Notes: a model not told the origin generated them from the sequence alone. Positions 1 through 19,062 are shown, numbered from the stretch's first letter. The stretch: DNA of 36,432 nucleotides from an uncultured bacterium (GCA_903904875.1 CAIVEC010000022.1:1-36432); one strand, 5' to 3'. A program made the numbers and translations.

Positions 1-1120
<1,120 letters not shown>

Positions 1121-1218
1121 ATTGTTTTTTTAATACAACGTAATATATCATACTATTGTTAAATACCTACATCATAAACACTGCTTTTTTTTGTGTAAAA
1201 AAAAGTTGTGCAGGGTTC

Positions 1219-1380: not shown

Positions 1381-1438
1381 ATACTTGAGACACAATAAAA
1401 ACTTGAAGTAGTGAAAGTTTTTATGATGTCGAAATTAT
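1381..1438 (+). repeat. Dyad element 1, copy a
   Basis: The outer arms are TTGAGAC and GTCGAAATTAT. The inner stem is a perfect ATAAAAACTT/AAGTTTTTAT hairpin. It closely matches the copies at 8038 and 31634. Confidence 0.75.
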
Positions 1439-1474
1439 GGTTTGCCAATTGAATATTTATTCATTTTGGCAACC

Positions 1475-1525
1475 ATATATTCTTCAATCAAAAATATTAA
1501 AACATATTTTTGAAGGAGAATATAT
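1475..1525. repeat. Dyad element 2, copy a
   Basis: The arms begin ATATATTC and end GAATATAT around TTCAATCAAAAATA and ATATTTTTGAAGGA. A second copy lies at 21859-21908, where the eighth base pair is changed from C-G to A-T on both arms. This compensatory change suggests that the hairpin itself is conserved. Confidence 0.7.
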
Positions 1526-1595
1526 ACCGACGATTTTTGACGCATAAAGTACAAGTATCAGCGAAGTAATTTATGAGGTCGAAATCAATCGGTAT
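1524..1595. repeat. Dyad element 3, copy a
   Basis: A 72-base inverted repeat with arms ATACCGACGATTTTTGAC and GTCGAAATCAATCGGTAT and a shared interior (AAAGTAC, then GAAGTAATTTATGA). A 73-base copy lies at 31689-31761. Confidence 0.7.
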
Positions 1596-1634
1596 GAAAT
1601 ATATTTCTGATCAGAATTAGACGATAAGTTTTTC

Positions 1635-1695
1635 ATAATTGAGACGCCTTGAAAATCTGATTATTTTTTGAGGATTTTCGAACGTCGAAATTATA
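1635..1695. repeat. Dyad element 1, copy b
   Basis: The outer arms are ATAATTGAGACGCC and AACGTCGAAATTATA. The inner stem is GAAAATC/GATTTTC, unrelated in sequence to the inner stem of the other copies. The outer arms are conserved while the inner stem changes but still pairs. Confidence 0.7.
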
Positions 1696-1800
1696 CTTTC
1701 TACAACAATAATTACTCGTTATACTTCGTAATTATTTGAGTAGAAAGTATATCACGTGCGGAAAAAAATTCACATATAGACATCGGTTTTTCCATGTATT

Positions 1801-1830
1801 AAAAAAAAGCTGGAGTAAAAAACTCCAGCT
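1801..1830 (-). terminator. Rho-independent terminator of the PorP/SprB-type operon
   Basis: A perfect 9-bp stem, AGCTGGAGT/ACTCCAGCT (1808-1830), with a 5-base loop is followed on the minus strand by eight T residues. It lies 10 bases after the stop codon of the last gene of the minus-strand operon. Confidence 0.85.
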
Positions 1831-1839
1831 CTAGATTAT

Positions 1840-3246
1840 TTAAAAATAAATTGTTTTATCGCCTATCAAAATCCGACAGGCACCGGTATATACATTGAAA
1901 TAGATAAGAATCCGTTGACCGGCTTTATCGTACACGGCGATGAATGCATCGCCTTGAATAATTTTGTATCGATTTGCTTGGTCGGTCTGTTGATAGACAG
2001 CTTGTTGCTGTCTGATAGCGGATTCTTTGAGGGTGGTGTACTTTTTATCAATCAAATATTTATATAATATTCCCTTTTGCGTTTGGATTTCTTCCACTAA
2101 GATTTTTGTGGTATCGAAAGCGGGATAATTAAATTTAAATTCATTGATTGATTGAAGATAATAGTACGCTCCTATCTGAACTTCTGCGTAATAGACATCG
2201 AACTTATGATTTTTCAAAGCAGAGTCGATGGCAATCAACTTCACATTACGTAAGGAGTCATATTTATCTTTATTTCCGAGAAAAACAATCGGTACAATTA
2301 CACTATCTTTGGGAAGAATATGTGGCTTAATATGCGCCAATTTCGTAGTATCCCTCGGATGTAATTTTGGAACTATATGTCCCCAGTAGATATCATCGCC
2401 GCCGGCACCGCCAGGACGAGAAGAAGAGAGGAAAAACATCGAATCACAGTTCATGAACCAGCGATCATCGACAGCAGAATTGATAGGTAATGCCTGTGGT
2501 TTTAACCATTGTCCATCCTTGTCTAGTGTACTGGAGAAGATATCATATCCTCCCTTTCCACCTGAACCATTGGAACTGAAATACAAAGTTTTTTTATCTG
2601 ATCCAAAACACACATCAACCTCATCACCGGATGTATTGATCATATCAAGCGGAACAAAAATTATATACTGACCGGCATCATTTTTACGCGACCAATACAA
2701 ATCATGTTCGCCACGTCCGCCAGGGCGTTCACTCGATATCACCATAATTCCATTCGCTTCGGCAACACTTTGTTCATGCGAATCTGAATTTACAGGAGGC
2801 TTCATCTGTCTAGGTGTAGACCAATGTTTCTTTCCACGTGTTGAACAATAAAGATCTCCATTGCCAAACGTTTTGTAGGTAAACAACTTCGGGCCTTCAG
2901 AAGAAAAACCTGCTAAAGCGGTATAGTCATCACTATTGAAAAAATAAAATTTCTTTGGTGGCGACCACACGCTATCAATAAAATGAGTAGTATAAATATT
3001 CTCATTAAATTGAAGATCCGCTTCATCGGTGTTCCGGTTTTTCCTAGAGGATGAAAAGTAGAGCATTCCATCGATGTAGATGGGTGAGTAATCATCTTTG
3101 GCACTATTAACATTGAGGGATTGAATAACTAAACTATCATTCTCTCCCAAAGTCTGCCAAGATGTGCTAGGTTTCTTTTGCCCGAAAAGGGTGGTAGTGG
3201 TCATCATACAGACAACCACCACCAAGAGAGAAATCAGTTTTTTCAT
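1840..3246 (-). CDS. PD40 beta-propeller protein with SPOR-like C-terminus (T9SS/gliding-associated)
   Basis: A 468-residue secreted protein. A signal peptide (residues 1-22, ending TTTTLFG) is followed by WD40-like PD40 repeats with the typical YFSS, ISSERPGG, LYFSSNG and FLSSSRPGG turns, each before a D-L/I-Y or D-I-F/Y motif (about residues 50-290). After a linker, residues 350-460 (YAEVQIGAYY, then AFIAVYDKAGQRI) resemble the SPOR-like module that follows PD40 repeats in many Bacteroidota proteins. The OmpA domain of PorE/SprE-type proteins is not present. It is the third gene of an operon with a PorP/SprF protein, overlapping that gene by four bases (ATGA). In Bacteroidota, such proteins sit at the inner face of the outer membrane next to PorP/SprF. 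About thirty glycines are all GGN; there is no in-frame TGA, unlike the genes from 8143 on. Confidence 0.8.
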   Translation of the reverse strand: MKKLISLLVVVVCMMTTTTLFGQKKPSTSWQTLGENDSLVIQSLNVNSAKDDYSPIYIDGMLYFSSSRKNRNTDEADLQFNENIYTTHFIDSVWSPPKKFYFFNSDDYTALAGFSSEGPKLFTYKTFGNGDLYCSTRGKKHWSTPRQMKPPVNSDSHEQSVAEANGIMVISSERPGGRGEHDLYWSRKNDAGQYIIFVPLDMINTSGDEVDVCFGSDKKTLYFSSNGSGGKGGYDIFSSTLDKDGQWLKPQALPINSAVDDRWFMNCDSMFFLSSSRPGGAGGDDIYWGHIVPKLHPRDTTKLAHIKPHILPKDSVIVPIVFLGNKDKYDSLRNVKLIAIDSALKNHKFDVYYAEVQIGAYYYLQSINEFKFNYPAFDTTKILVEEIQTQKGILYKYLIDKKYTTLKESAIRQQQAVYQQTDQANRYKIIQGDAFIAVYDKAGQRILIYFNVYTGACRILIGDKTIYF

Positions 3247-4160
3247 TTACTAGATCTCCCTTCGTTGAATATTTTTCTTATAAATACAGAGTTATTAACG
3301 GCTTTGTAGGTGTAGGCAGTTGCGTCAACCCATGATCCATAGGTACACAAATACCCGAAGGACCAGGACTGAGCAGTTACGCCCACATCAAATTTCAAAG
3401 CGCCAATACTGCGGTAGCCGACACCAAACCAGAACATTTTATTATACTTGAGATCAACACCTGCCTCCCATGCGTAGGCTTTTTCGCTCGCGAAAACTCC
3501 AGCGCCTGAAGGCTCTAAACCAAATTTTTCTCCCAAGTTGAAGGTATACGCTCCTACGAAATAATAGGTGCGCTGTCGGGCATTGTTCCATGTAGGATTA
3601 AGAAACGCATTCTTGTTTTCCAATAATTGATAGGACGACAAGCCAATATAATATTTGTCCTCGCGCAGAAATGCGAGTCCGGCACTGGCATTGCCATTTG
3701 GTTGAAATTGAGAAACATTACTTAATCCAGGATCATTAGGATCAATCACAATCGCATCATTGCCAGAAAACTTATCCTGCATAAAATGGCCTGCCAGAAA
3801 AAAAGATAGTTTATCACCTTTTTCTTTGGAAAGAAATACCCGATAGATAAATGCTAATTGGGCATCTAAATGCATGGATAAACCAGCTTGTTCGCGATCT
3901 AATTTAAATCCGATACCGACACCATCTGAAATGAAACCACTAGCTAAAATGGTGCCTTGGTTAGGATGACGATTGAATCCGTCGAGACGAGTACCTGCCA
4001 TGAAAGTAGCGGTGGGTACTGCGTTCATAGACATAAGTGCCATATTATGCACTTGTGGTGCCTTATGAAACCAAGGATTGATTCCCTGTCCCACTTGCAT
4101 TTGTGCTACGCTGGTGCTGATCATCCCGATCAACAAAACAGCAATTATATTTTTTTTCAT
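3243..4160 (-). CDS. PorP/SprF-family outer membrane beta-barrel protein
   Basis: A 305-residue protein with a signal peptide (cleavage near STSVA-QMQ). It has the PorP/SprF layout: an early block of MALMSMNAVPTATFMAGTR type, repeated aromatic beta-strands (YYIGLSSYQLLENK, YYFVGAYTFNLGEKFGLEPS) and strand-rich ends (FWFGVGYRS, WSFGYLCTYG). In Bacteroidota this family helps anchor SprB-type adhesins at the surface and is coded beside them, as here. The gene ends in TGA, which overlaps the ATG of the next gene (ATGA). If the cell reads UGA as glycine, translation would continue out of frame through the next gene for about 36 codons to a TAG. All its glycines are GGN. Both facts point to a donor with the standard code. 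Confidence 0.85.
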   Translation of the reverse strand: MKKNIIAVLLIGMISTSVAQMQVGQGINPWFHKAPQVHNMALMSMNAVPTATFMAGTRLDGFNRHPNQGTILASGFISDGVGIGFKLDREQAGLSMHLDAQLAFIYRVFLSKEKGDKLSFFLAGHFMQDKFSGNDAIVIDPNDPGLSNVSQFQPNGNASAGLAFLREDKYYIGLSSYQLLENKNAFLNPTWNNARQRTYYFVGAYTFNLGEKFGLEPSGAGVFASEKAYAWEAGVDLKYNKMFWFGVGYRSIGALKFDVGVTAQSWSFGYLCTYGSWVDATAYTYKAVNNSVFIRKIFNEGRSSK

Positions 4161-4166
4161 AGCTGA

Positions 4167-7100
4167 TTAATATTTGATATCAATACTCGATTTGAAGATA
4201 TACTCTTTGCCGTTTTCCGCTACACGAATATAATAATAATAAACGGTATTGGCAGCGGCTTTGTTATCAAGCGGATTCCAGGTGAAATTACAGTCCGAAG
4301 ACTCAAAAACTTTTTCACCCCAATCCGTAAAGATCTTTACGAGAAATTCCTGAAACTCACATCCACCCTGTACAGCGAAGACATCATTATAGCCGTCTCC
4401 ATTTGCTGTTACAAGATTTGGAATCAAAATACAATCATCCGGACCCTTACCCACATACAGTGAGTCCGTCGCCGAACAACCATACTGATTGATCAGAATT
4501 CCTACATAAAAACCCGAAGGAAGATTACCGATAGCTTGACCTGGTGAAACAGAATCGACCAGCACACCCAACGAATCATAGAGGTAAAAGGTATTGATGA
4601 ACGGAGACCAGTAAATGTCTTCCGTATGCAACACAACTTGTCCGTCATCTGATTGCTGGCAAGAAGTGCTCGTTATCGTGGGAAAGAATTTTATCCACTC
4701 ATACGGCTCTTCGACTTCATAGGTTTCATAAATAATACATCCAAGCGCATCGGTAATAGTTACATTATACATACCCGCGGGTATGTTAGTTATAGTTGAA
4801 GTTGTCATTCCGTTATTCCACAAAAAAGTATATGGACCCGTACCACCATGAACAGCGTCCAAGATGATTGAGCCTGTATTGTCGCCTTTGCAGATCACCG
4901 GAACAATATTAACCGTTCCTACAGTTATTGGTAATGGTTGTTGAAGTACTAAAGTAAACGTAGTATCACAACCGGTTGAAGATATTATTGTTACAGAATA
5001 ATTACCAGCGGAAAGTCCTGAAATAAATGGGACAGGAACAGTGTCGGTAGAGATAGTGTCTCCGGTTGAGAATATTACGGTATAAGGAGCATTAGGTCCA
5101 GTAATAGTAATGTACCAGGAACCAGTGCTTCCATTATTACAATATATCACATTAACCGAATCTTTGATAATTGTCGGCGCAGGTTGTGTAAGTGTAAAAC
5201 TCATCTGAGCAAAACACCCGACAGAATCCATAACCGTAATTTGATAAACCCCAGCAGGCACATTGATGATATCCTCAGTCACAGCAAAAACGTTTCCGTT
5301 GTGCAACCAAGTATATTGCAGTGGACCTTTTCCACCACCAGTAGTGATATAAATAGCACCATCGTTTCCGCCATTGCAGTGAATATTATTAAGCGAATCT
5401 AAGGTGATAGTGATTGCAGGTGGTTGAGTGATAGTTGCTGACGCGGTTATTGAACATCCTACAGAATCAGTTACGGTAAGCGTATATGTTCCGAAACCTA
5501 CACCAGTCATATACGGTGTTGTTGCACCGTTCGACCATTGATAACTCAGAGGACCAGTCCCGCCAGAATAAAAAGCTTCGGCGTGTCCCGTAGTGGTAGC
5601 ATTACAAAGAACATTTTCTGAAATCACATAACCTTGTAAGGGCATCAATGGTTCAATGCGAATAGTTCCTGTAACAGAGCATACACTATCATCACTGACG
5701 GTGTACGTATAATCACCCACCGCTAAACCAGTGATGGTGAAAGCAGTTGATGTGAATCCACCAGGACCCGTCCACGTGATGTGGTAGCCTGGCATAGGAT
5801 TACCTCCGGAAGCGGAAATCGCGATGCTTCCATTGTGATCACCATAACAGATATTATTAGTAACAACTTCATTCACAACAAGCGGCGTAGCAGATTGATT
5901 GATAGTAAAAGTATAATATGCCGAACATCCTGTAGCATTGTCAGTAATAGTAATGGTATATGTTCCTGCGATAAAACTCGTCGTAGCACTGAATACGGAA
6001 TCGTTAGATGTAAATGATCCTGTATTATACAGAGAACTCCAACTGTACGTAAAGTACACACCAGGAGCGGCATTTGTAGCTTGCACCGTTACGCTTCCTG
6101 TTGCTCCATTACACACGTAAGGAACAAGTGTTGCAGTAAACGGAATAGTAACCAAATTAGGAATCACCAGCGTGTCTATATATACACAGCCGTTTGCATC
6201 AGTAATGAGTAATGCATACGTTCCTCCACGGACATTCACTAAATTTTGAGTCGTGTACGTTGAATCAAAATTTATTTCGTGCCACAAGAAAGTGTAGGGG
6301 AAAACTCCACCACCAACGACAATCGAGATAGCGCCGTCATTATGGCCATCACACGAACTTGGTGTGATAGTTGGCACCATAGTGATCGCAAGTGGTTCGC
6401 TAACAGCAACTGAAGCAGTTATAGTGCAACCGTTTAGATCAGTTACTGTCACCGTATAGACTCCCATTGGAAGATCGGTAAGTGTTTGAAGAGTAGAACC
6501 GTTTGACCATGCATATGTATATATATTACCGACTCCACCACTAGCAGTTGCACTTACAGAACCATCGTTTCCACCATTACACGTAACGTTGTTTAATACC
6601 GTCGTATGCACATGGATAGGTGTTGATGGCCCGGTGATGATAACTGAAGCGGTAGTAGTGCATGCATTTCCATCAGTCACGGTTACAGTGTACGTCCCAG
6701 CAGGTAAATTAATGATTGTTGCGGTAACTCCACCGTTCGACCATGCATAGCTGTAAGGAGCGCTTCCACCACTTGCGTTAGCGGTTGCAGTACCATCACT
6801 AAAGCCGAAACAATTTATGTTGGTTGAAGTAATAGTTACCTGCAAAGGGAGCAAGGGTTGAGTGATAATAACTGAAGTGCTAGTAGTACAACCGTTTGCA
6901 TCAGTAACCGTCAGTGTATATGTACCAGCAGGCAAATTAGAAATGGTAGGCGTGATTTCGCCAGTTGGTGCCCACAAATAATTCAAACTTGGAACCCCAC
7001 CACTACCTGTAGCAGTTATCGTTCCATTATTTCCACCGAAACAACTTACATTAGTGGAAACCGTAGATACAGAAACAGCAAATGCTGGTTCTACAATTAC

Positions 7101-7817
7101 AATAGTTTGGATCTGAATACATCCGTTTGCATCTGTCACCGTAACTTGGTAATTACCAGCAGGTACGTTTGTAATAGCTGAAGTGGTAGCGCCAGTATTC
7201 CATTGATACGTATGAGCACCGGTTCCTCCAAAAGAGATAACTGAAGCTGCTCCGGTACTTGCACCGGTGCAAAGCACATCAGTTCTGCTTGCAATAACGG
7301 TGATAGGAAGTGGCGGTTCTGTAATAGTAACATTGTCAGTAGCAGTACACCCATTTCCATCAGTCACCGTGACCGTGTAATTTCCCGCAGTTAAGTTAAT
7401 GGTATTAGAAGTACCACTTCCATTCGACCAAGTATAGGTCAGAACACCAGTTCCGCCGACTCCTGAAGCGACCGCAGTTCCATTGTTTCCACCATTACAA
7501 CTTACGTTCGTGGAAACTATAGATACCGTCAAGGGCGGTGGATCAGGAAGATTCTGTGAATACACGACAGAAATCGACATTGCGTCAGTCACCGAAACAG
7601 AGTAAAGTCCGGCAGAGAGATTAGTGATGGTATTCGTCACTGCTCCTGTCGACCACAAGTAAGTATAAGGTCCGACTCCAAAACCTGGAACGACCGTCAA
7701 TTGACCGGTAGCATCGCCATTACAGAGAATGGGATTGTCAACGGTAATCTGTGCTTTAGTCACCCAAGAACAGGCGAGAAAAAACACGAACAATAATACA
7801 ATTTTTTTCGTTTTCAT
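4167..7817 (-). CDS. SprB-repeat adhesin with T9SS type B / gliding C-terminal domain
   Basis: A 1216-residue secreted protein. After a signal peptide (residues 1-22) come about fourteen SprB-type repeats of 70-80 residues. Each has a C-x-G-x-x-x-G start (NVSCNGGNNGT), a Y-x-W-S-N-G turn and a L-x-A-G-x-Y-T-V-T-V-T-D-x-x-G-C end. The last 90 residues (IPNLVTANGDGYNDVF, IFTDWGEKVFES, YYYYIRVAENGKEYIFKSSI) match the gliding-motility/type IX secretion C-terminal domain, type B. In Bacteroidota this would be exported by the type IX system and shown on the surface as an adhesin; no T9SS core genes (PorK-N, SprA) are in the window. Well over 100 glycines and not one TGA. First gene of the operon with the PorP/SprF-like and PD40 genes. 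Confidence 0.9.
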   Translation of the reverse strand: MKTKKIVLLFVFFLACSWVTKAQITVDNPILCNGDATGQLTVVPGFGVGPYTYLWSTGAVTNTITNLSAGLYSVSVTDAMSISVVYSQNLPDPPPLTVSIVSTNVSCNGGNNGTAVASGVGGTGVLTYTWSNGSGTSNTINLTAGNYTVTVTDGNGCTATDNVTITEPPLPITVIASRTDVLCTGASTGAASVISFGGTGAHTYQWNTGATTSAITNVPAGNYQVTVTDANGCIQIQTIVIVEPAFAVSVSTVSTNVSCFGGNNGTITATGSGGVPSLNYLWAPTGEITPTISNLPAGTYTLTVTDANGCTTSTSVIITQPLLPLQVTITSTNINCFGFSDGTATANASGGSAPYSYAWSNGGVTATIINLPAGTYTVTVTDGNACTTTASVIITGPSTPIHVHTTVLNNVTCNGGNDGSVSATASGGVGNIYTYAWSNGSTLQTLTDLPMGVYTVTVTDLNGCTITASVAVSEPLAITMVPTITPSSCDGHNDGAISIVVGGGVFPYTFLWHEINFDSTYTTQNLVNVRGGTYALLITDANGCVYIDTLVIPNLVTIPFTATLVPYVCNGATGSVTVQATNAAPGVYFTYSWSSLYNTGSFTSNDSVFSATTSFIAGTYTITITDNATGCSAYYTFTINQSATPLVVNEVVTNNICYGDHNGSIAISASGGNPMPGYHITWTGPGGFTSTAFTITGLAVGDYTYTVSDDSVCSVTGTIRIEPLMPLQGYVISENVLCNATTTGHAEAFYSGGTGPLSYQWSNGATTPYMTGVGFGTYTLTVTDSVGCSITASATITQPPAITITLDSLNNIHCNGGNDGAIYITTGGGKGPLQYTWLHNGNVFAVTEDIINVPAGVYQITVMDSVGCFAQMSFTLTQPAPTIIKDSVNVIYCNNGSTGSWYITITGPNAPYTVIFSTGDTISTDTVPVPFISGLSAGNYSVTIISSTGCDTTFTLVLQQPLPITVGTVNIVPVICKGDNTGSIILDAVHGGTGPYTFLWNNGMTTSTITNIPAGMYNVTITDALGCIIYETYEVEEPYEWIKFFPTITSTSCQQSDDGQVVLHTEDIYWSPFINTFYLYDSLGVLVDSVSPGQAIGNLPSGFYVGILINQYGCSATDSLYVGKGPDDCILIPNLVTANGDGYNDVFAVQGGCEFQEFLVKIFTDWGEKVFESSDCNFTWNPLDNKAAANTVYYYYIRVAENGKEYIFKSSIDIKY

Positions 7818-7912
7818 TTTAGTAGTTTTTATTTTTTTAGTTAGTTTTTAATTTATATATATATATGTTAATGATCACATCATAGTTTCTCGTGAAAAGA
7901 AACCATAAAACC

Positions 7913-7940: not shown

Positions 7941-8014
7941 GACTTTTACATACTTTTTATGCTTTGTCAATAAATGAAAAGGTGGAAAAGAAATATTGGG
8001 AAAATAGGTTTTTT

Positions 8015-8043
8015 TTGACAAATAAGAGTTTTTAGAGTATAAT
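8015..8043 (+). promoter_or_regulatory. Perfect consensus sigma70 promoter
   Basis: TTGACA (8015-8020), a 17-base spacer and TATAAT (8038-8043) match the consensus at all twelve positions. The start point would be near 8050, 93 bases before the ATG at 8143. The TATAAT is also the left arm of dyad element 1 (8038-8098), so the transcript would begin with that element's inner hairpin. Confidence 0.85.
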
Positions 8044-8098
8044 TGAGATGCAATAAAAACTTGAATCTCTTTGAAAGTTTTTATACAGCGAAATTATA
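8038..8098 (+). repeat. Dyad element 1, copy c (fused to a promoter)
   Basis: The outer arms are TATAATTGAGATGC and GCGAAATTATA. The inner stem is ATAAAAACTT/AAGTTTTTAT, as in copies a and d. The right arm runs into a short hairpin, TATACC-TTTA-GGTATA (8095-8110), which looks like element 3 with its interior removed. Confidence 0.75.
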
Positions 8099-8142: not shown

Positions 8143-9642
8143 ATGCACAAAAAGCTCATCATCACAATAAGCGTCATCTTAGGAGCACTCTATGCACTGG
8201 GAAATGTTTTTTCTATCAATTTATTTTTTCCCAACCTCAACAACCAGTCATTGCAAGATAAATTTTCTCTTGTTCATTTTATGGCACCAGGAAATAATTT
8301 CGGATGAAGCATATTCCGGTTAGCTACGAAATCGGTATGACCAAGAGTAATTAATACTCCTTCCGGTGATACGAAAACATGCACCAAATTAGTCAGAGGA
8401 TTATATTTCAATTCACAGAGAGGAAAAAGGCTACGACCGTTGGATAGCGATACGCTTACATTATTACAGCAACAGAATAGTTGATATAATAACCTTCAGA
8501 TGACATGAGGACTGTATACGACATGCGGTTCTGGATACGGCATTTTCGGATATATAGAATACACGCGATGAGGAGTAGTTTCAAAGATAGCAGCAGGAAC
8601 AAAATTAGATTACAACAATAATAGAATAATTGATTCTATGGCGAATAGTTTCCAATATTTTGACAATAAAGTTCCGTTGGGATACATCTACGATAGTAAT
8701 GGAGGGATAGGATATGTCGGAGGATATCTGACCGGTCATGATGCCCTGATAAGTTTTTTGAATAGTTGAGGATCGATAAATAGCGGATTCATGTATTCCT
8801 GAGACACTATCATTTCTCACGATCCCGGCCGGACGACAACGATAGAGAGTTGAAATAACGCAATGCAGACGATGCGGAATCTTATCATCCAATGAAGCGT
8901 AGGATTGTCCAAATCCATCGATGAAAAAGAAAGGATTTCGCTTCTCGGTAATTTCCAAAACAAAACAGTCATCTACAATGGAAGCGATATCAATTCATCG
9001 ACAGTGATAAATTTTGCAAAACAGAAAGCGCAAGAACTCTGTCAAGGCAAAGAAATTAATCTGCCGATATCAACCGATGAAACGATACTGTGTTACGAAA
9101 ATACTGATTTAAATATCGATTTGACTCAACCGACAACATATGAGAATAAAACCATTATCGTAAAAAGCGGTAACGTTATTTTACAAGGTGGAATGCAAGA
9201 AATTTCTCCATCACTGGATCTCTTTATAGACAAAGGAATACTTTATTTACCGGATCCATTCACCACACGACAGACATTCAATGAACAATGATTTCCAGAG
9301 ACAAGTGGAGTAATTGCATGACTCTATCTCAAAGGAAACTTCATCATCAACGGACTCATACTATGATGAACAACAGGATTCAACCATAAACTTCATCTCC
9401 AAGGAAAAATAACGACACTTAACACTCCACTCACTCCGAACCCAGGAAGAACATGACAGATTGAAAATATGTTTGGGTGATCTCTGTATGATAACTTCAT
9501 CAATCTCCAAAATGTATTCGTACGAACATGCGGATTTGATGGAACAGGCAGCGATGGCTCACAATGTATGACAGGGAATATTATTTCCAGTACACCGCTC
9601 GTTATCTTGAACGGAAATTATCCTTCAAATATATTACAATAA
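8143..9642 (+). CDS. Secreted protein of unknown function, UGA-rich
   Basis: A 499-residue protein read only when TGA is glycine; about fifteen in-frame TGA codons, including two TGA TGA/TGA GGA runs that fit turn-rich sequence. The N-terminus (MHKKLIITISVILGALYALG) is a signal peptide or membrane anchor. The rest is rich in G, N, S and T and probably beta. Residues 255-385 carry ordered strands (NKTVIYNGSDINSSTVINFA, KTIIVKSGNVILQGG), and the last 100 (GNFIINGLIL, NLQNVFVRTCGFDG) look like beta-helix or pilin-like surface protein. No family is recognised. The start is the first ATG after the consensus promoter; the stop TAA overlaps the start of the bidirectional terminator. Codon use differs sharply from the TGA-free operon just to its left. 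Confidence 0.8.
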
Positions 9643-18373: not shown

Positions 18374-18401
18374 TTGACTTTTTATAAATAATAAGTATAA
18401 A
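18374..18401 (+). promoter_or_regulatory. Candidate promoter of the 210-residue gene
   Basis: TTGACT (18374-18379), 16 bases, TATAAA (18396-18401). The ATG is 29 bases further on. Confidence 0.6.
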
Positions 18402-18429
18402 GACAGTATACAAACCAAAAAAACAAAAT

Positions 18430-19062
18430 ATGAAAACAGTAAAACTTTGCGGTCCAAACCTAAAAACCCAGTTAACAATAGCAATTACTGGAAGCGAAAA
18501 CGCCTCATTATCAGTTGCTATTGAAGTAAATTTCGTTGAAAATGGCGAAAGTCAAAAGGGGAAATTACTCCTGCACACAAAAAATCCATTACATCACAAA
18601 AGTATGACTGACAATATCCTTTGTTTTACAGGGACTATTGTGAACAACAATTTCCGTCGTCCTTGTATGGGATGTTATTATACTAAAGATGTAATTGAAG
18701 AATGCTGGATGACCATCATCGAAATGGAAACCGAAATCTTCAAAGTCTACATCGGAAAAACGGAATTTATCAAGCAGTGCAAAGAATATTATCGCAGCCA
18801 AGGATTCAAATTCACTGAAGACGGAAATTTGGTAGACGGATTTCCATCATTCAGAAACATGCCCAAAGAAGGCGATCTGATTGGAGTACTGATAAACAGA
18901 AAAGAAATAGAAGTTTCTACGGAAATGTACAAAAATCTCTTCCCTATAGTAAGGAAAAAAGGGGAAATAAAAGAGATCATCTTCGGCGAGTTCATTGAAG
19001 AACACATGATAAAAACTTACTCTGCAGAAGAAGCAAAAATCAGAGGAGTGATTATCAAATAA
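18430..19062 (+). CDS. Hypothetical protein, 210 residues
   Basis: A soluble protein with no signal peptide or membrane segment. It has a cysteine pair in RRPCMGCYYT (about residue 80) and an earlier ILCFTG, and a mixed alpha/beta C-half. No family is recognised. It has its own promoter and terminator. Fifteen glycines are all GGN; without a TGA it reads equally under both codes, which is mildly unusual here and allows recent acquisition. Lies between two single-gene units. Confidence 0.8.
   Translation: MKTVKLCGPNLKTQLTIAITGSENASLSVAIEVNFVENGESQKGKLLLHTKNPLHHKSMTDNILCFTGTIVNNNFRRPCMGCYYTKDVIEECWMTIIEMETEIFKVYIGKTEFIKQCKEYYRSQGFKFTEDGNLVDGFPSFRNMPKEGDLIGVLINRKEIEVSTEMYKNLFPIVRKKGEIKEIIFGEFIEEHMIKTYSAEEAKIRGVIIK

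Follow-up and report, generated by a model that had tools for sequence, protein, structure and literature searches.

A UGA-free SprB/PorP/PD40 operon in a UGA=Gly genome belongs to a conserved gene class that may be translated in a Bacteroidota partner

The gliding and type IX secretion (T9SS) cargo operons of Bacteroidota, which combine SprB, PorP (SprF) and PD40 genes, have the same domains, signal peptide and C-terminal domain as the operon that we analyse here. Its gene order is also that of Aureibacter plasmid pAT2, and the SprB/PorP junction of a Bacteroidota locus (L150) has the same ATGA coupling with a TGA stop. The operon differs from its Bacteroidota counterparts in that it lies in a genome in which UGA encodes glycine and in which sprA was not found, and in that the gene class to which it belongs has sigma70-type promoters instead of TAnnTTTG. 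The nearest published idea is that of the code-11-compatible phages of Gracilibacteria and Absconditabacteria (Liu et al. 2023, PMC10746230); spacers from other bacteria also match nine putative Gracilibacteria phages, and in five of these cases the spacers are from Bacteroidetes (PMC10746230). These phages resemble the operon in having no in-frame TGA and being readable in both codes, whereas the genes described here are stable and chromosomal, with secretion tags and with start signals of the type of a putative partner. In Flavobacterium johnsoniae, the determinants of translation starts are A at −14 to −11, −6 and −3, with no Shine–Dalgarno sequence (Baez et al. 2019, PMC6847099). The class has A at the same positions but, unlike in F. 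johnsoniae, these Kozak-like starts are found on a subset of genes and are lacking from the carrier's other genes. A full-text search of the open-licence literature found no paper that links type IX secretion to Gracilibacteria or Absconditabacteria, and none on BD1-5 with sorting domains.

The window is the whole stretch of DNA analysed, a complete contig (C22; 36,432 nucleotides) of a 966-kb genome from an uncultured bacterium. Its features are as follows.

1..1122, minus strand: 5' part of the 23S rRNA, native left flank (Rfam RF02541, 871 bits; 94–95% identity in congeners)
1382..1751, no strand: native intergenic repeats that form the insert's left border (48 matches across the own genome; same family at this site in congener G003)
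1801..1830, minus strand: intrinsic terminator of the operon, a AGCTGGAGT/ACTCCAGCT stem followed by a minus-strand T run
1840..3246, minus strand: PD40 beta-propeller protein, 468 aa, TAA stop (Pfam PF07676)
3243..3246, minus strand: ATGA overlap, with the PorP TGA stop (3243–3245) within the PD40 ATG start (read from the sequence; the PorP/PD40 junction of relative G754 is alike)
3243..4160, minus strand: PorP/SprF-type outer-membrane protein, 305 aa, TGA stop (Pfam, tree)
4167..7817, minus strand: SprB-repeat/CHU_C adhesin, 1216 aa, TAA stop (Pfam and codon count)
7818..7837, minus strand: translation start region, rich in A (75%) and Bacteroidota-like (base composition)
7965..7970, minus strand: TTGACA, a possible −35 element of the operon without a clear −10 (promoter search)
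8015..8043, plus strand: native promoter (TTGACA-N17-TATAAT) driving the next gene, with the right border of the insert to its left (sequence)
8143..9642, plus strand: native gene with 15 TGA-Gly codons; its synteny with the 23S gene is shared by congeners
18374..19062, plus strand: second candidate class member, with a TTGACTTTT promoter at −56, an A-rich start, 210 aa and no TGA at 15 Gly

The adhesin has a signal peptide ending in KAQ, 11 stretches of SprB repeats (PF13573, 2.5e-94) and a C-terminal T9SS sorting domain (CHU_C, PF13585, 6.5e-15) at residues 1131–1212, and the PorP/SprF match (PF11751) scores 88.3 bits against a cut-off of 22.3. These Pfam domains agree with a preliminary description of 1840–7817 as three Bacteroidota-type genes, SprB, PorP and PD40. 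An outer membrane, in which a PorP/SprF protein would sit, is not expected in this lineage. The overlap of the PorP TGA at 3243–3245 with the next ATG, also described earlier, is seen as ATGA in the sequence, and we accept this TGA as an intended stop; reading it as glycine would indeed lengthen the protein, by 38 residues instead of the approximately 36 first given.

Native genes of the carrier have in-frame TGA at glycine sites and exchange GGN and TGA at conserved glycines, a code (UGA=Gly, code 25) from which we infer that the carrier belongs to the Gracilibacteria/Absconditabacteria. No RF2-like protein was recognised in the sampled, partial genome stretches. The operon uses 194 GGN codons and no TGA, whereas 26 other ORFs of the window have TGA at 152 of 581 glycines (26%), so that its description as UGA-free within a UGA=Gly window holds; the probability of finding no TGA among 194 glycines by chance is about 3e-26. 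TGA is absent from the 130 glycines of the adhesin and the 33 of PD40, and does not occur internally in PorP.

The operon also has a GC content of 39–43%, compared with about 36%, and deviating codon use, as would be expected of an assembly chimera in which a Bacteroidota fragment had entered the contig. However, both flanks are native and syntenic, which makes a chimera unlikely. Homology to congeners on the left extends to 1347, native repeats continue to 1751 and the right-hand promoter begins at 8015, placing the insert, with its own terminator, at about 1.8 to 8.0 kb. The repeat at 8039–8097 is of the same family as the elements at 1382–1751, which match dozens of copies, bearing out the earlier observation of native-family elements on both sides of the operon. 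In three congeners (G003, G006 and G008) the 23S gene is followed, after a few hundred nucleotides, by the orthologue of 8143–9642 with the operon absent, supporting the view that the integration is real. In addition, there are no N, PorP and CHU_C each occur once in the genome, and the same kind of island recurs on many long contigs of independent assemblies, one of them a 1.18-Mb single-contig genome. We consider a chimera, which had been raised as an alternative, extremely improbable.

The short intergenic repeats (1382–1751, 8039–8097, 21855 and 31634) form an abundant family with dozens of copies in the genome. At the insertion site of the operon, G001 (L011 3059–11308, G001:C23) has a native, repeat-rich, secreted-looking protein of 2749 aa with 105 TGA-Gly codons, and the large surface protein encoded upstream of the 23S gene seems to vary from species to species. 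A Pfam scan of proteins near the operon revealed no recognisable phage gene.

When relatives were searched with SprB repeats, additional carriers came to light within the family. Two of them, G033 (a single contig of 1.18 Mb) and G754, possess all three genes of the operon at a common position next to a dnaJ-like gene, with identities of 66, 78 and 59% between them. All 96 conserved glycines of these two operons are GGN in both genomes, whereas neighbouring genes exchange GGN and TGA freely, and the G754 PorP likewise ends in a TGA stop within an ATGA overlap. The window PorP is 31% identical to its orthologues in this UGA=Gly family (f1), and PD40 is 30% and 29% identical to its G754 and G033 orthologues. 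The window PorP scores about 100 bits to G033 and G754 and about 74 bits to Bacteroidota, and in the PorP tree the window, G033 and G754 sequences group as a single clade (100/99) within the Bacteroidota sequences, with the window on a long branch. The operon's closest kin lie within the host's own UGA=Gly family. Plasmid and phage collections contained no close relatives. An evenly drawn phylum search had made PorP look unique to this genome, a notion discarded because the draw had missed G033 and G754, later found through SprB. A recent Bacteroidota donor was also rejected: a PorP scan of genome contigs gave no relative, and the best Bacteroidota PorP matches, at about 30% identity, are weaker than those to family members.

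Of 49 family genomes, 31 encode Por_Secre_tail domains. Among 78 T9SS-type genes picked by homology from sampled genome stretches, with codons ignored, 69 have no internal TGA (3,544 GGN codons, 27 genomes) and nine contain it; for 61 of the 69 TGA-free genes, the log10 probability of UGA absence is −670. In G753, one T9SS-type gene has no TGA at 76 glycines and one neighbour has TGA at 82 of 92. Orthologue pairs of the class (a three-gene operon beside rpsL and families of 515 and 705 aa, among others) share 829 conserved glycines with 544 third-base changes and not one GGN/TGA exchange. Control pairs, mostly of neighbour genes, show 94 GGN/TGA, 66 TGA/TGA and 191 GGN/GGN sites (94 of the 191 with a third-base change), so that half of the synonymous glycine changes in the controls gave UGA; the pairs are non-independent, but we judge the contrast between class and control to be far beyond that effect. 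TGA has thus been excluded despite ample time, pointing to selection or non-decoding and not to short residence. The other synonymous codons of the class follow its own genome, which likewise indicates long residence and led us to reject general codon usage as a partner signature, although there are weak shifts at codons such as AGA and TGT. In the TGA-free class, TGA occurs solely at the expected protein end, as judged by domain or operon overlap, in seven genes (one each in the window, G754, G015, G008 and G010, and two in G014); the stop follows codon 417 in L264 of G014 and codon 659 in L322 of G008. Selection against UGA is well supported, and the class has very probably been selected for readability in the standard code.

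The other origin offered in the preliminary description was a very recent, unadapted transfer. A related scenario is repeated arrival from Bacteroidota, with loss or replacement before TGA builds up, and it is consistent with the Bacteroidota type of the gene families and with insertion sites that vary in content among genomes. However, orthologues that share positions, have diverged by vertical descent and are saturated at synonymous sites are still free of UGA; the window PorP groups with family members, the f1 PorPs forming one clade (100/99), away from a Bacteroidota donor; the other synonymous codons have already shifted to those of the host genome; and the promoters are of symbiont type. 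Short residence does not account for the absence of UGA, very recent transfer is disfavoured and repeated arrival seems improbable to us.

Several further loci touch on the class. The UGA-free operon beside rpsL (L204 3873–8284, G000:C11; L267; L266), with PKD, Ig-like and Por_Secre_tail domains, has orthologues across three species of the genus. A few T9SS-tagged genes (L307, L308, L311 and L271), a minority, contain TGA and start like native genes, as though they had been domesticated so that the carrier can translate them. Adjacent guaB and purA genes in a UGA=Gly genome (L295 7688–10557, G000:C18) have no TGA at 91 glycines and A-rich starts; they are either plain transfers or class members acting on purine supply. 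At L293 (14118–15956, G000:C25), a secreted-looking 304-aa gene is followed by an isochorismatase-family gene, both UGA-free and with A-rich starts. The window gene at 18374–19062, for which no signal peptide and no Pfam match was found, may belong to the class as a cytosolic protein.

Start regions, taken from first-ATG calls, contain 60% A in the class and 34% in native genes (p=2e-18), which are T-rich there and have a Shine–Dalgarno sequence in 3% of cases. The class has A maxima at −14 to −11, −6 and −3 (p=2e-5), the positions also seen in sampled Bacteroidota genes, whereas the native profile is flat. TGA absence is associated with an A-rich start in two genome samples (p=5e-7 and 1e-3), and the nine TGA-containing T9SS-type genes have native-like start regions (0.34 versus 0.57 A, p=6e-4), indicating that code and start signal change together. 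Sigma70-type promoters resembling TTGAC(TTTT)-17-TATAAT are present in 46% of class leaders, compared with 1–2% of shuffled sequences, 11–13% of native genes and 1% of Bacteroidota genes. The Bacteroidota promoter TAnnTTTG is enriched in Bacteroidota only and not upstream of the class, and we therefore rejected Bacteroidota-type promoters as its drivers. Gln follows the signal peptide in 75% of the class versus 11%. SprA_N, marking one T9SS component (the translocon protein SprA), was found in none of 20 family genomes (the carrier's own, 87% complete, and 19 relatives) and in all five Bacteroidota controls, so that the carrier has no evident use for the sorting tags.

Translation in a Bacteroidota partner is the simplest single account of these findings. 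The operon would be one of a conserved class kept readable in the standard code, with products made in such a partner, a reading to which we assign a probability of roughly 0.55. Transcription would start from the carrier's own sigma70-type promoters, and the translation start, the code with its stop, the signal peptide and the sorting tag, all of Bacteroidota type, would serve translation by Bacteroidota ribosomes in the putative partner or host cell and export by the partner's Sec and T9SS machinery to the partner surface. There, the SprB-like adhesins and PorP/SprF would function, probably by helping the symbiont to attach or to be attached. The combination of symbiont-type promoters with partner-type translation signals fits delivery as mRNA best, DNA transfer being the alternative, and we put mRNA delivery forward tentatively. 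Equally speculative is a fuller version, in which symbiont mRNAs written in the partner's dialect (standard code, Kozak-like start, TGA stops) are delivered across species, the partner makes and exports adhesins, and perhaps nucleotide enzymes (guaB, purA), to the benefit of the symbiont, and the recoded genome keeps two gene sets for two translation systems. It counts against this explanation that no pathway is known by which the symbiont could pass mRNA or DNA to a partner.

The main rival is that the carrier translates these genes itself, TGA being avoided because the UGA-reading tRNA-Gly is limiting while the regulon is expressed, at a stage of starvation or attachment. Very high expression in the symbiont would likewise be consistent with A-rich starts and strong promoters, the promoters are of symbiont type, cytosolic enzymes belong to the class, and weak shifts are seen at AGA, TGT and other codons. 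Several TGA-free genes are ordinary enzymes (guaB and purA) that could be plain transfers, and TGA stops are fewer in the class (7 in about 70 genes) than in a Bacteroidota control (138/672), both of which speak against translation in a partner. Against translation by the carrier, EF-Tu has TGA at 2 of 34 glycines and ribosomal proteins, EF-Tu and secY together at 54 of 267, so that high expression alone is an insufficient cause of TGA avoidance and is weakened as a candidate. Moreover, rpsL of G022 has TGA at 5 of 11 glycines and the T9SS genes of the same genome at 0 of 106, native giant secreted proteins are rich in TGA (105 in 2749 aa), and the TGA at the exact end of seven genes and the Bacteroidota start-site pattern are left unexplained. 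We regard translation by the carrier as less likely, though a serious competitor.

On the preferred reading, of translation in a Bacteroidota partner, the difference in genetic code is a natural reporter of the place in which a gene is translated. If selection holds chromosomal genes in a foreign code, they point to the molecules whose production a candidate-phyla symbiont leaves to its partner. Host-directed genes of uncultured symbionts, and their likely host phyla, could then be found from sequence alone, and mRNA or DNA would have to pass regularly from one bacterial phylum to another.
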